Positions 1,933 through 46,020 of a stretch of DNA of 64,000 bases are shown piece by piece. Positions within the stretch are counted from its first letter, which is position 1. Each line of letters begins with the position of its first letter. Location of the stretch: assembly GCF_037126435.1 (NCBI RefSeq), contig NZ_CP147020.1, positions 2,717,293 to 2,781,292 on the forward strand, in the 5' to 3' direction. Origin of the DNA: Bernardetia sp. ABR2-2B. Its GTDB lineage: Bacteria > Bacteroidota > Bacteroidia > Cytophagales > Bernardetiaceae. The position numbers and the translations under genes were made by a program. The notes beneath the pieces were generated by a model. The model was not told the DNA's origin. It searched no databases and saw only the letters and a list, made by a program, of their open reading frames with translations.

Positions 1933-2289
1933 ATGTCTATACAAAATCAACTTCAAGGAAAATGGAAATCTACTGAGCAGATTGAAAGACTACCAGACTA
2001 TGGTTTAGATTTTTCAAAATGGATAGGACAAGGTGCTAGAGATGGTCATTACTACTTTTCTGTTTTACAACAAGAAGAAGAAATAATAGCTCAAGTAGAT
2101 ATTCCTGTGGGTGTAACTGGTTATTTTTCTATTTACAAAGGAAGATTTCAATCTACAAAAACTCAAATCAAAATTTGGCAGAATGACCAAAATCCTGTCA
2201 GAATAAAATATACTCTTGGAGATGACTTACTCACTTTAAAATTATTTTCAACAACTATTAGGTTCAAAAAAACAAATTCAAAAAAATGA
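1933..2289 (+). CDS. Small lipocalin-like hypothetical protein, 118 aa
   Basis: The N-terminal pattern LQGKWKSTEQ, followed by alternating beta-strand-like stretches and a late IKYTLGDDLLTLKL motif, resembles lipocalin-like or META-type beta-barrel proteins of Bacteroidota. There is no signal peptide, so it is predicted to be cytoplasmic. The last codons overlap the next gene by 4 bp (ATGA at 2286-2289), the usual arrangement for translational coupling. Ligand and role are unknown, and the fold assignment is by eye. Confidence 0.7.
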   Translation: MSIQNQLQGKWKSTEQIERLPDYGLDFSKWIGQGARDGHYYFSVLQQEEEIIAQVDIPVGVTGYFSIYKGRFQSTKTQIKIWQNDQNPVRIKYTLGDDLLTLKLFSTTIRFKKTNSKK

Positions 2290-2855
2290 AAAAAATACTT
2301 TTAATTCTATTATTATCAATTTTTACTTTCAACCTAAAAGCACAGGATACGAGTGTAGAGCAATCTACATTTGGAATCCAAACAGGAATTTTAGGTTTTT
2401 GGGTACACAATGAAACAAAACTAAGTAACAAAATTGCTCTCAGAACTGAGCTAGGTTTAGAAGGACAAGTCTATAAAATAGGAAGAAATGATGATAATCT
2501 AGCTAATTATGTTCTTACTCCAGTCTTGACCATAGAACCTCGTTGGTATTATAATTTGAATAAGAGGGCTAATAAATCAAAAAATATTGATGGAAATAGT
2601 GGTAATTTTTTATCTCTCAAAACGAGTTATTATCCAGACTGGTTTATGATTTCAAATGATGAAGGACTACTCATGACAAATCAAATTTTTGTAATTCCTA
2701 CTTGGGGAATGCGAAGAAACTTAGGCAAAAACTTTGTTTTTGAGACAGGAATCGGTTTTGGCTATGCCTACTATTTCACAAAGAAAAATGGATATGACGA
2801 AAACGAAAGTGGAGCAGCTATTAACCTTCATTTAAGAATTGGTTATCGCTTCTAA
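2286..2855 (+). CDS. Outer-membrane beta-barrel-like protein, 189 aa
   Basis: A Sec signal peptide (MKKILLILLLSIFTFNLKA-QD) is followed by alternating amphipathic strands. The protein ends in a typical outer-membrane C-terminus, LHLRIGYRF, with a terminal Phe. The Gly/aromatic-rich strands (FGIQTGILGFWV, GIGFGYAYYF) fit a small 8-strand barrel. It overlaps the upstream gene by 4 bp, so the two are likely coupled. The function is unknown; porin-like or structural roles are possible. Confidence 0.75.
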   Translation: MKKILLILLLSIFTFNLKAQDTSVEQSTFGIQTGILGFWVHNETKLSNKIALRTELGLEGQVYKIGRNDDNLANYVLTPVLTIEPRWYYNLNKRANKSKNIDGNSGNFLSLKTSYYPDWFMISNDEGLLMTNQIFVIPTWGMRRNLGKNFVFETGIGFGYAYYFTKKNGYDENESGAAINLHLRIGYRF

Positions 2856-2884: not shown

Positions 2885-3352
2885 ATGATAAATAAGCACC
2901 AATTACATCACAAAAAGTATAAATCTTTTCTAAGAGAAAATAGACAAGACCCTATTACTGGAGATACTATCCAAGAAAATGATACTGTTGTAATTTGTGC
3001 TGTCTGTAAATCAGCTTTTTTAGAAGATTCTTGGAGTTATATGAATGGTCAGCATTGTAATCAATCATCAACTTTAAAAAAAATTCCTAAAGAGAATGCT
3101 CTTATAATCAAACAAGAAAAAACAAAACCTAAAAAAGCAAATAAACAAAAAAACACAGAACGAAATGAAAAGTATAGGAGTATTTCTTTATCACTTGCTG
3201 TTATTTTACCTATAGGCTTTTATGTATTCTGTATGGTCAACTATTTTAAACCAACAGATACTGGTTTTTTAATGACAGGAGTATTCTTGACAGCAGGTAT
3301 TTCTGGAGTATTAATAATGTTTGTTGATTATTTTTTTAAAAATATAACTTAA
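2885..3352 (+). CDS. RING-like half-zinc-site protein with two membrane helices, 155 aa
   Basis: Residues 12-68 form a small domain with DPITG at 22-26, a Cys pair at 38 and 41 (VVICAVC), a Trp at 50 and His57-Cys58. The spacing copies bacterial RING-like domains, but ligands 1, 2, 5 and 6 are replaced by Asp/Thr and non-ligand residues, leaving only the CxxC plus HC site. A Lys-rich linker (about 78-98) is followed by two transmembrane segments near residues 102-120 and 127-148. The N-terminal domain matches the protein encoded at 45244-46020 without gaps. The stop codon overlaps the convergent LuxR gene by 4 bp. The RING relation is inferred by pattern and the function is unknown. Confidence 0.75.
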   Translation: MINKHQLHHKKYKSFLRENRQDPITGDTIQENDTVVICAVCKSAFLEDSWSYMNGQHCNQSSTLKKIPKENALIIKQEKTKPKKANKQKNTERNEKYRSISLSLAVILPIGFYVFCMVNYFKPTDTGFLMTGVFLTAGISGVLIMFVDYFFKNIT

Positions 3353-4017
3353 GCCAAATTAAAATTTAAGGCAAATTGTATTAGTTCTGCACTTGAAGAA
3401 AAACCACTTTTTTTATAGATATTTTTTTTATGTTTAGTAATGGTATGAGGAGATAAAAATAATTTTTCAGCAATTTCCTTTACCTCAAGCCCTTGACAAA
3501 CGAGCTGAATAACTTCCTTCTCTCGCTTTGAAAACTCTTTATAGAGAGAAAGATTTTTTTCAATATAACTTGAAGAGTCAAAAAGAGTATTTACCTCTTC
3601 TTTAAATTCATCCACTTGTGTAATCGGACAAGTTATACTTTGAAATATATTTCTTTTAATATTGAGCTTTACACAAGTAAAATAAACTTGATATTCTGTC
3701 TGTCCTTTTAATCTCAATCGTTGAAAATAACTAAGCGTTTTGCTCTCATCATTTTCAGCAGCAAACTCATGTAATTGAGGCAAACATCGTTGAATATCTT
3801 CAGGGTGCATAATATCTAATAAAAACTCTGCTCCTGCCTCTTGTATTTCCTCAAGTGTTTTACCATATAATTGACAGCCCTTTTCTTCTAAATACAACAA
3901 GTTAATTGTATCTTTATCATTTTCATGATAGAAACCTAAGAAATCTTCTGTACCTGTTTTTACCTCATCTATATTGTTCAGACGAGCAAGAGATTTTTGT
4001 ATATCTAAAACACCCAT
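3349..4017 (-). CDS. LuxR-family regulator with PAS-like sensor domain, 222 aa
   Basis: The C-terminal 60 residues form a GerE/LuxR helix-turn-helix (FSKREKEVIQLVCQGL, then EIAEKLFLSPHTITKHKKNI), which binds DNA. Residues about 20-135 look like a PAS fold, with a HPEDI element at about 93 followed by beta strands, so it probably senses a signal directly rather than by phosphorylation. It is the downstream member of a tandem pair, 15 bp after the start of its paralogue's stop, and likely shares its mRNA. Target genes cannot be read from the sequence; the neighbouring small genes or the metal-efflux operon are possibilities. Confidence 0.85.
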   Translation of the reverse strand: MGVLDIQKSLARLNNIDEVKTGTEDFLGFYHENDKDTINLLYLEEKGCQLYGKTLEEIQEAGAEFLLDIMHPEDIQRCLPQLHEFAAENDESKTLSYFQRLRLKGQTEYQVYFTCVKLNIKRNIFQSITCPITQVDEFKEEVNTLFDSSSYIEKNLSLYKEFSKREKEVIQLVCQGLEVKEIAEKLFLSPHTITKHKKNIYKKSGFSSSAELIQFALNFNLA

Positions 4018-4032
4018 ATAATTAAATCTATT

Positions 4033-4704
4033 TTACTTGTGTATTTTGAATTTTACAGCAAAGTTATAAAATCTAAAAAAACTATGAACATTCATTTTTC
4101 TATAAATATTAATCTTATGGTTTTTAATAGTATGAACAGATACACCCATTGCATCAGCCACTCCTTGTAAAGAATTTCCACTACATAAATATTTACAAAC
4201 TTCTATTTCTTTTTTGGTCAGAAGGCTAAACCTTTCCAAGTTCTCTTTGATAAAATTTACATTTTCATAAATATCATTGATACTTTGATTGAAGAGTTCT
4301 AAATCATGGACAGGTACACTCAAGTTTAATATACGACTATCATCTAATATTTTACCTCTCGTATAATAGAGCATTTCTTTGTGAGAAGGATAAGTAACTC
4401 GCTGAAAAAATGAAACATGTGTCATCTCTTCTTGATTGTTAATGTAATCTAAGTTTACATTAACTGCATTTGTCAAGTCTTGAGGATGAACCGTTTTTTG
4501 TAAATAAGTAAAACCTTCTCTATTTAACTCTTCGATATCTATATCAAAATACTCTAATAACTTGGTATCAGATTCAATAACAGAAAAATCTTCTAATGAG
4601 TTGATATGCAAATGACATGGAATATGTCTTGTTATTTCTTCAATAGACTTTTCACCTGTTTTGATTTGACGAGAAACTTCATGAATACTAAACTGTTCGA
4701 ACAT
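4033..4704 (-). CDS. LuxR-family regulator with PAS-like sensor domain, 223 aa
   Basis: Same architecture as the next gene downstream: a PAS-like N-terminal region with a VHPQDL element, then a C-terminal LuxR/GerE helix-turn-helix (LTKKEIEVCKYLCSGN and SVHTIKNHKINIYRKM). I chose the ATG at 4704 rather than a TTG at 4737 because it gives a length matching the paralogue (222 aa) and a normal start codon. The pair appears to be an old tandem duplication with strongly diverged sensor domains, so the two may respond to different signals. They are transcribed away from the metal-efflux operon, with 278 bp of shared upstream DNA. Confidence 0.82.
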   Translation of the reverse strand: MFEQFSIHEVSRQIKTGEKSIEEITRHIPCHLHINSLEDFSVIESDTKLLEYFDIDIEELNREGFTYLQKTVHPQDLTNAVNVNLDYINNQEEMTHVSFFQRVTYPSHKEMLYYTRGKILDDSRILNLSVPVHDLELFNQSINDIYENVNFIKENLERFSLLTKKEIEVCKYLCSGNSLQGVADAMGVSVHTIKNHKINIYRKMNVHSFFRFYNFAVKFKIHK

Positions 4705-4911
4705 AAGCTTATCTTTTTGATAGTGAAGGGAATACAAAGTTAAGGTTTTTAAATAAAAATGAGAAATTAATGATATTTATAACAAAAATCTCAACCTTAT
4801 TATTTCATAGACTATACTCACAGATACATCGCTGCTTATCATAAAACTAGATAACTTCAGAACCTATTCTAAATTAAACTCTTTCCAAATTAGCTTTTTA
4901 AGAAAGTTTAT

Positions 4912-45243: not shown

Positions 45244-46020
45244 TCAAAAATCTTTATTAATTATTCTTAGATTATAAGGAAGTTGAGAAATAAAATTACT
45301 CCATTCTAGAATGGTTTCTCTATGAATGGTAGCATAATAACTTACAGCTTCATATCCATCTATTCTTAGTTTTAATTGACAAAATAATCTTGAACTTAGG
45401 TCTTGAGTAGGGTGATAGTTGATAAAATATTTCAATTCGTGTATGTTTTCAAACAAAATTAGTCGTTCTACATTGTTTTTCTCCTTTATGACTATTCCTC
45501 CTTTTTTAAGATTTATGCCAATATTCAGATAGGATTTTGTATTTTCTATTTGCTTTATGGTTGGATTTTTAAGTTTTAGAGGCTTACTGTTATGCCACTC
45601 TACCCAGCCAATAAAACCTATAATAGATAAGAAAAACATGATGGCTATTGCCCAACCAAATGAAACTCCAATAATTGGAAATAAAATAGGGGCAGCTATC
45701 ATCATCAAAACTCCTATAACTTTTAGCCCACTGCTAGGAACATACATGGGTTGGTAAGCAAAACCAAAATTCAAAAACTCCATTGGTTTGGCTTCTAAAA
45801 CTAAGTTTTTTGAAATAGGAATTTCTTCAAGCGTTTCAAATTGCTCACAATGCGACTCATTGAGATACTCCCAGCTTTCTATAAAAAAGGCAGATTTACA
45901 GGCAGCACAAATAACAACTGTATGTCCTTCTTCTATTTTTTCGCCTGTGATTGGGTCAGTTCTATCTTGCTTCAAAAAATCTTGATAAGTTTCTGAACGA
46001 ATAGTATGTGTATAGATCAT
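45244..46020 (-). CDS. RING-like half-zinc-site membrane protein, 258 aa
   Basis: Residues 12-68 match the N-terminal domain of the protein at 2885-3352 without gaps: DPITG at 22-26, Cys38 and Cys41, Trp50, His57 and Cys58. By hand count about 36 of the first 68 residues are identical. Two membrane helices follow near residues 102-122 and 124-144, then a C-terminal domain (about 160-258) not present in the paralogue, with ERLILFENIHELKYFI and REWTILEW-like helices. The domain resembles RING-like zinc domains with one site lost. The function is unknown; a role at the cytoplasmic membrane face is plausible. Confidence 0.75.
   Translation of the reverse strand: MIYTHTIRSETYQDFLKQDRTDPITGEKIEEGHTVVICAACKSAFFIESWEYLNESHCEQFETLEEIPISKNLVLEAKPMEFLNFGFAYQPMYVPSSGLKVIGVLMMIAAPILFPIIGVSFGWAIAIMFFLSIIGFIGWVEWHNSKPLKLKNPTIKQIENTKSYLNIGINLKKGGIVIKEKNNVERLILFENIHELKYFINYHPTQDLSSRLFCQLKLRIDGYEAVSYYATIHRETILEWSNFISQLPYNLRIINKDF

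Follow-up and report, generated by a model that had tools for sequence, protein, structure and literature searches.

A multi-copy family of membrane-anchored half-RING proteins in Bernardetia and its possible link to an endogenous ubiquitin-like pathway

The ubiquitin-like operons known from bacteria contain, to our knowledge, few or no E3 genes, and Burroughs in 2011 reportedly predicted RINGs in bacterial Ubl operons. Among the closest described systems are the Bil and Bub operons (PMC11354881, PMC13373217), which combine an E2, a Ubl and a JAB protease; the same components occur in Bernardetia, with an E1 in sister genomes. Unlike in those operons, the Bernardetia E1 lies apart from the Ubl-E2-JAB genes and a large RING-like family is present. 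The Bil Ubl (BilA) is a two-domain protein (PMC11354881), whereas the Ubl here is a single domain of 84 aa with one YukD-like match, and so does not fit the Bil type. The same review states that bacterial RINGs may be without two ligand pairs, and YukD has been reported as not conjugated (PMC1779556). Large, fast-changing families of ubiquitination-type domains have a bacterial precedent in the Parachlamydiaceae, although the F-box and BTB-box proteins described there are proposed to act on a eukaryotic host (PMC4209131), whereas here the genome has its own E2 and Ubl. The open-access literature searched showed no family of 8-56 half-RING copies alongside a single E2 match in each genome.

The window, a stretch of 64,000 nucleotides from Bernardetia sp. 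ABR2-2B (2717293-2781292 of contig C1 of a 5.38 Mb genome in 4 contigs), holds two family members. The shorter is an ATG-initiated forward-strand ORF of 155 aa (2885..3352), in which sequence, phmmer and a hydropathy scan point to a half-RING, a basic linker and two membrane helices, and which is without a C-terminal PH-like domain. Its half-RING covers residues 12-68 (2918..3088), modelled with AlphaFold. All of the residues listed in the first-pass annotation (DPITG at 22-26, Cys38, Cys41, Trp50 and His57-Cys58) are present, and the two-helix tether that it proposed was recovered by the hydropathy scan at residues 100-118 and 129-147 (3182..3325, forward strand). Because the linker before the helices is Lys/Arg-rich, the sequence suggests that the N-terminus is cytosolic. 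A syntenic orthologue of 157 aa, 61% identical, is kept in the related genome G003, which shares the gene order around the short copy (three neighbours 73-85% identical), and the short form is thus an old gene. The second member lies on the reverse strand (45244..46020) and was identified by family search, hydropathy scan and modelling as a 258-aa protein with a half-RING (residues 1-75, 45796..46020, from conservation and AlphaFold), two membrane helices and a PH-like C-terminal domain (residues 165-256, 45253..45528, with an added strand near 80-89). With VIA-align, rows 1-8 for this C-terminal part were all SPT16 or SSRP1 PH domains (Z 9.6-10.3, 94-101 aligned), the match to SPT16 having a Z of 10.3 and an rmsd of 2.9 over 101 aligned residues, so that the PH fold is matched; this PH-like call derives from a single model (pLDDT 80.8), made for the second window copy.

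A search of the whole genome with the short window protein returned 53 places, 51 of them at E below 1e-16; the remaining two were a remnant with three stops and a weak match to the membrane part. The remnant (G000:C1:1555536-1555622) adjoins an intact copy. The 51 are intact ORFs that carry the half-RING domain (found with phmmer from the window copy and all read), and they form 29 clusters, with 32/51 in arrays of two to five. So many copies with the same ligand-type residues go far past anything that chance would produce. By hydropathy scan, 36/51 have two membrane helices, eight have one and seven have three or four, and an N-terminal hydrophobic segment is absent in 49/51 (the scan being used here rather than a signal-peptide program). 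Pfam matches at E <= 0.1 comprised RDD in five members, TPR in one and a weak FERM_C (PH-like) in five. Only the window copy at 2885-3352 and one of 139 aa (L016) are shorter than 200 aa, and both are without the PH-like domain. No named NCBI family covers the window copy 2885..3352, and five named families among the 51 members hold one or two members each. No member matched PADLOC (0 of 51), which disfavours a defence family.

Conservation within the family bears directly on the two zinc sites of a cross-brace RING. Asp22 and Thr25, within the DPIT motif (residues 22-25, 2948..2959), stand at the places of ligands 1 and 2, Cys38-x2-Cys41 (2996..3007) provides ligands 3 and 4, Leu46 and Ser49 stand at the places of ligands 5 and 6 in the stretch that ends at Trp50 (3020..3034), and His57-Cys58 follows (3053..3058; all forward strand). 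Asp22, Thr25, Cys38, Cys41, Ser43, Phe45, Trp50, His57 and Cys58 occupy their positions in 51/51 own copies, ungapped, while position 46 is L in 42, F in seven, H in one and M in one, and position 49 is S in 41 and T in ten. The proposed loss of the site-1 ligands is therefore borne out at positions 22, 25 and 49 in every copy, with a single His at position 46 in 1/51. Eight ligands, as in a two-zinc-site RING, are not found, since positions 22, 25 and 49 are neither Cys nor His in 51/51; nor do the copies match a U-box, which has no zinc ligands at either site, since Cys38, Cys41, His57 and Cys58 are present in 51/51. As in a U-box, zinc ligands (in this case those of site 1) have given way to different residues, most of them polar; a U-box, though, binds no zinc, whereas the half-RING has four invariant ligand-type residues. 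A two-zinc ancestor was not found among the eight family copies of G008, a relative of another genus.

The pattern extends to relatives. Among 104 distinct proteins (the 51 own copies plus 53 drawn from three further assemblies, some of these 53 having been preselected with a pattern that spans residues 41-50), position 24, the E2-contact position of RING E3s, is Ile or Val in 104/104, and Cys58 is absent in one, which has Tyr instead. This is a 160-aa copy (L054 5744-6226) that keeps His57 and is perhaps decaying. A further 58 copies, from stretches of G001, G002, G003 and G006, have Asp22, Thr25, Cys38, Cys41, Trp50, His57 and Cys58 in 58/58; they were found by profile independently of the residue 41-50 pattern, Cys-x2-Cys-x8-Trp was required for placing them, one truncated ORF without it was dropped, and some G006 copies are common to both sets.

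How these residues correspond to a full set of ligands can be seen from two canonical Prok-RING_1 proteins of another member of the Bacteroidota (L113 and L114 of G583; PF14446), whose ligand pattern is C-x2-C, C-x2-C, H-x2-C-W, C-x4-C. Between ligand 1 and Trp the family has their order and spacing, and in both a hydrophobic helix comes next in the sequence; the family differs in that Asp, Thr, Leu and Ser stand at site 1 and the ligand-8 place is empty. The window protein aligns with L113 without a gap over these six ligand positions, the replacements being Cys to Asp22, Cys to Thr25, His to Leu46 and Cys to Ser49, with Cys38, Cys41 and Trp50 kept. After Trp, the two alignments with L113 differ: ligand 7 is Cys58 in one, which places Thr63 at ligand 8, and His57 in the other, which places Ser62 there. 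Ligands 7 and 8 of L113 and L114 are Cys five apart, and in neither alignment does the window protein have a Cys or His at the ligand-8 place. The claim that all four site-2 ligands remain thus holds for three, which are homologous, and fails for the eighth: His57 and Cys58, invariant in 51/51, would between them fill the roles of ligands 7 and 8, one being ligand 7 and the other a probable stand-in for the absent ligand 8. From the sequence, the fourth site-2 ligand is most likely this adjacent substitute, His57.

Homologues encoded elsewhere in Bacteroidia, within runs of pathway genes, form a graded series between these extremes. The G252 homologue has all eight ligands (CHYC, KCKH, HVHCW, C, C); the G416 homologue has lost site 1 alone (DPIT, KCEH, NSW, C, C), with the same Asp, Thr and Ser replacements; and in those of G372, G255, G357 and G059 ligand 4 is in addition Gln, with a His at the ligand-5 place in G059. 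The family profile matched the six operon proteins in hhalign with a probability of 96.6% (E 6.5e-10) and the two canonical Prok-RING_1 proteins with 84.1% over 27 columns, so that the family and the eight-ligand RINGs are homologous in sequence. At E <= 0.001 the family profile picks up only the G372, G255 and G059 proteins of these six, those of G357, G416 and G252 being linked by reading and by homology to the G372 protein. Given the graded series and the hhalign matches, the half-RING of the family is real in sequence, with the correction at ligand 8. The membrane proteins of these runs (L196-L198, L200-L202) resemble the family in having DPIT or DPYT in 5/6 and a common order of Cys, Trp and Cys; they differ in occurring as one copy per run and in carrying FHA (Pfam, in L094 and L198) and, in G372, vWA, whereas the own-type family has 8-56 copies, most of them dispersed, whose further parts are PH-like, RDD or TPR.

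The relationship to RING domains had previously been proposed by pattern only; profile comparisons now support it, and the structural rows point the same way at modest Z. Prok-RING_1 (PF14446) matches 39/51 members at E <= 0.1 (best E 1.2e-4), and its cut-off of 29.1 bits is reached nowhere in the 59 related genomes, the best score being 27.3 bits. AlphaFold gave a confident model of residues 1-81 from 55 sequences (pLDDT 87.1, pTM 0.72, 61/81 residues at pLDDT >= 90). In Foldseek the model had no significant match (best E 0.53), PHD and other fingers appearing near RINGs. With VIA-align on the Foldseek candidates, rows 1-17 were all RING domains (Z 5.2-6.5), the best being RNF38 (Z 6.5, rmsd 2.4, 58 aligned); a VIA Z below 8 is by itself insufficient to settle the RING fold for a predicted model. 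A plain zinc ribbon or an unrelated fold, which the first-pass annotation had named as the outcome that would speak against a RING, is not favoured by the model or by the Foldseek and VIA-align rows. Against the sequences of solved structures, the family profile had no significant match, the third row being NOSIP (E 0.72) with a shared DPVTGDKL stretch, and the profile of the operon proteins had no match at E <= 1. The linchpin Arg and the loop-2 Pro of RING E3s are not evident in the family.

The genome that carries the family also encodes an E2 and a Ubl. The one E2 (PF00179, 27.4 bits against a cut-off of 27) lies beside an 84-aa YukD-like Ubl (28.0 against 27), and a JAB protease (27.7 against 22.5) and a DinB protein are encoded there as well, all four genes being on the same strand (L171 7982-10270, equal to G000:C1 193481-195769). 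Sequence comparison pairs this E2 with solved E2 enzymes, Ubiquitin-conjugating enzyme E2 2 being the best match (E 2.4e-6), and places the HPN and the catalytic Cys in register. A search with PF14461 found no match, yet the controls were also silent, so that it gives no evidence of E2 absence. All eight genomes with the family have Ubl and E2 at this locus, and JAB was seen in 6/8 of the stretches read; the contig of G003 begins at the locus, and in G002 there is no JAB in the stretch read. Within the genus (seven genomes) the Ubl is 95-100% identical, against 76% for G008, and it ends in DAGK, or DAGYHLC in G008, as would be expected of a precursor tail if judged by sequence. The own DNA read, up to 0.36 Mb with overlaps counted, yielded no E1, and neither did the 18.5 kb read at the own array that matches the E1-bearing array of relatives. 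In G006 and G002, an E1 (ThiF, 183 bits) lies ~2.3 and ~4.0 kb, respectively, from a half-RING array, the G006 gene being at L205:8226-9455 on the reverse strand. Two genes (322 and 283 aa; L206 9370-11192) stand between the E1 and its upstream neighbour in G002 and are absent there in G006; the first, of 322 aa, is a putative DNA methyltransferase by its start.

Across related genomes, family and E2 occur together. The half-RING family is present in 8/59 related genomes (E <= 0.001) and not in 51, with 52, 23, 56, 41, 12, 17 and 40 matches per genome within the genus and eight in G008 of another genus (copies per genome thus ranging over 8-56). An E2 match (E <= 0.01) occurs in the same eight and not in the same 51, three of the eight exceeding the Pfam cut-off. 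Random assignment would give such an overlap once in 2.2e9, a figure that ignores kinship, the genomes being relatives. Because the co-occurrence is confined to one bacterial family (two genera with both, two with neither), it may represent a single event. Proximity on the chromosome is uneven. The own E2 is ~18 kb from the nearest two copies, a distance that chance gives in 18% and that is thus not closer than random, and the window copy 2885..3352 is not near pathway genes, or in a gene run with them, in the DNA read. G004 has two copies ~1.5 kb from its Ubl-E2-JAB locus, separated from it by a single gene, and closeness as in G006, G002 and G004 would arise by chance in ~3-6% per case at the copy spacing of the own genome.

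A wider sample of 395 genomes of the class contained E2 matches at E <= 0.01 in 11, six of them over the cut-off; the own locus (L171) and seven further stretches were read and the three weakest were left out. The family profile matched 113 of the 395 genomes at E <= 1, mostly as short, chance-level matches, and at E <= 0.001 only G372 and G255 remained in addition to the own genome; with ~0.4 genomes expected by chance, these two matches carry weight only with their gene context. In both, a STAND ATPase, E1, Ubl, E2, membrane JAB and half-RING protein are encoded on one strand, the half-RING protein of G372 having vWA and FHA domains (Pfam). One such one-strand run (L197 5726-15581) has a Ubl ending in GGK and a vWA-half-RING-FHA protein, and also holds, by appearance, a putative ion channel. 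In G357, G059 and G416, E1, Ubl, E2 and JAB are joined on one strand by a homologous membrane protein with the domain, and in G252, E1, E2 and JAB accompany a RING membrane protein on the same strand, with no Ubl detected. The contig of G432 ends after E1, Ubl and E2 are seen, so that a RING or half-RING protein is present in 6/6 of the stretches readable far enough. The canonical L113 of G583 likewise comes after Ubl and E1 genes. The stretch taken from G141, a weak profile match (E 0.003), had no pathway homologue.

The half-RING domain is exchanged between tandem copies while the C-terminal parts stay distinct. Synonymous difference in 41 same-array pairs was 0.39 in the N-terminal domain against 0.65 in the rest, compared with 0.64 and 0.67 in 1234 other pairs, and the rest exceeded the N-terminal domain in 38/41 array pairs and in 774/1234 others. 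Identity between array pairs climbs at the start codon and drops over codons 61-75; the N-terminal domains of tandem copies average 81% identity, reaching 96%, against ~31% for the C-terminal parts. Examples are the arrays at G000:C1:680936-685541 and 1018208-1022515, and those of L015, L019, L021 and L011. In 18/28 orthologue pairs with array mates, and not in the other ten, the DNA of the N-terminal domain resembles that of an array mate more closely than that of the orthologue; the pairs were chosen by C-terminal part, and the mate is the closest of at most four, a choice that works in its favour. Among 29 cross-species pairs with C-terminal parts at least 60% identical, the N-terminal domain is the less conserved part in seven; in the clearest (G002/G006) the C-terminal part is 98% identical and the N-terminal DNA 77%, with a break near codon 60, and in a second the values are 92% and 78%, with a break near codon 80. 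Such exchange suggests that the members of an array may share one docking partner while their C-terminal parts differ.

Taken together, the explanation towards which we lean, with moderate confidence, is that the half-RINGs are membrane-tethered, E3-like adaptors of an endogenous ubiquitin-like pathway, each a RING that has lost zinc site 1 and kept one zinc. What the analysis shows directly is the sequence, the number of copies, the predicted fold, the co-occurrence, the gene runs of other genomes and the recombination of the N-terminal domain; zinc number, E2 docking, transfer and substrates we infer. Asp22, Thr25, Leu46 and Ser49 would replace the site-1 ligands, their place perhaps being held by hydrogen bonds in the style of a U-box, and one zinc would be retained at Cys38, Cys41, His57 and Cys58. 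The E1 would activate the 84-residue YukD-like Ubl, the one E2 would carry it, and a half-RING would dock the E2 at the membrane and promote transfer, while the substrate or site would be picked by the C-terminal part, which is PH-like, RDD or TPR in members where its type could be recognised; the JAB protease may trim the Ubl precursor or reverse the tag. The broader proposal, that one Ubl, one E2, one JAB and dozens of membrane half-RING ligases with an exchanged docking domain and distinct recognition parts form a bacterial counterpart of the eukaryotic one-E2/many-E3 design, with the single-zinc domain a living intermediate between RING and U-box, is more tentative, and we place it somewhat below an even chance.

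Three other explanations have to be set against the adaptor reading. The half-RING could be a plain protein-binding domain, that is, a RING-descended membrane adaptor or sensor outside the pathway, family and pathway both being inherited from the same ancestor. The possibly single event behind the co-occurrence, the chance-level distance to the own pathway genes, the 51 copies facing one E2 match and the loss of a zinc site, which fits an altered role, all suit this account, which is nevertheless rather unlikely: homologous RING and half-RING domains stand in E1/E2/JAB runs of other families, two other genera of the same bacterial family are without both, and the E2-contact position 24 stays Ile or Val. 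That the domain is instead another small one-zinc knuckle or treble clef appears improbable. It would account for the single conserved set of four ligand-type residues and for the PHD and other fingers near RINGs in Foldseek (all with weak E, and VIA Z below 8), but not for the gapless match to canonical Prok-RING_1 from ligand 1 to Trp, for VIA-align rows 1-17 being exclusively RING domains, or for the graded series, which runs from eight ligands down to a lone site 2.

Slightly less probable still are polymorphic or host-acting effectors, in which the N-terminal part would be constant and serve delivery while the C-terminal parts would vary and act as effectors. Such proteins would show the constant and variable parts seen within arrays and the large copy number, and the ubiquitination-related expansions of the Parachlamydiaceae have been proposed as host effectors (PMC4209131). 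Against them, the hydropathy scan gives no N-terminal hydrophobic segment in 49/51 and two internal helices in 36/51, the recognised C-terminal parts are RDD, TPR and PH-like (the last from one model), no member has a PADLOC match, and E2, Ubl and JAB are encoded by the genome itself. If the adaptor reading is true, about fifty E3-like adaptors would serve a single E2 and Ubl, the expansion of substrate-choosing E3s would not be a eukaryotic invention, and Bernardetia would offer a genetic system for testing such an expansion at a membrane. With the single-site domain, and with eight-ligand and site-2-only homologues in like gene runs, the RING-to-U-box question can be put to the test by counting metal and by mutation.

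The neighbourhood of the short window copy has features of its own. Between the conserved neighbours and the copy lies a gene (window 2286-2855) for a 189-aa protein that looks secreted and barrel-like and has no Pfam match; the syntenic G003 stretch has no match to it. On the other side, on the reverse strand (window 3349-4737), are two adjacent LuxR-type regulators, both kept near the short copy in G003; compared crosswise, either regulator shows 25-27% identity to the other's orthologue.
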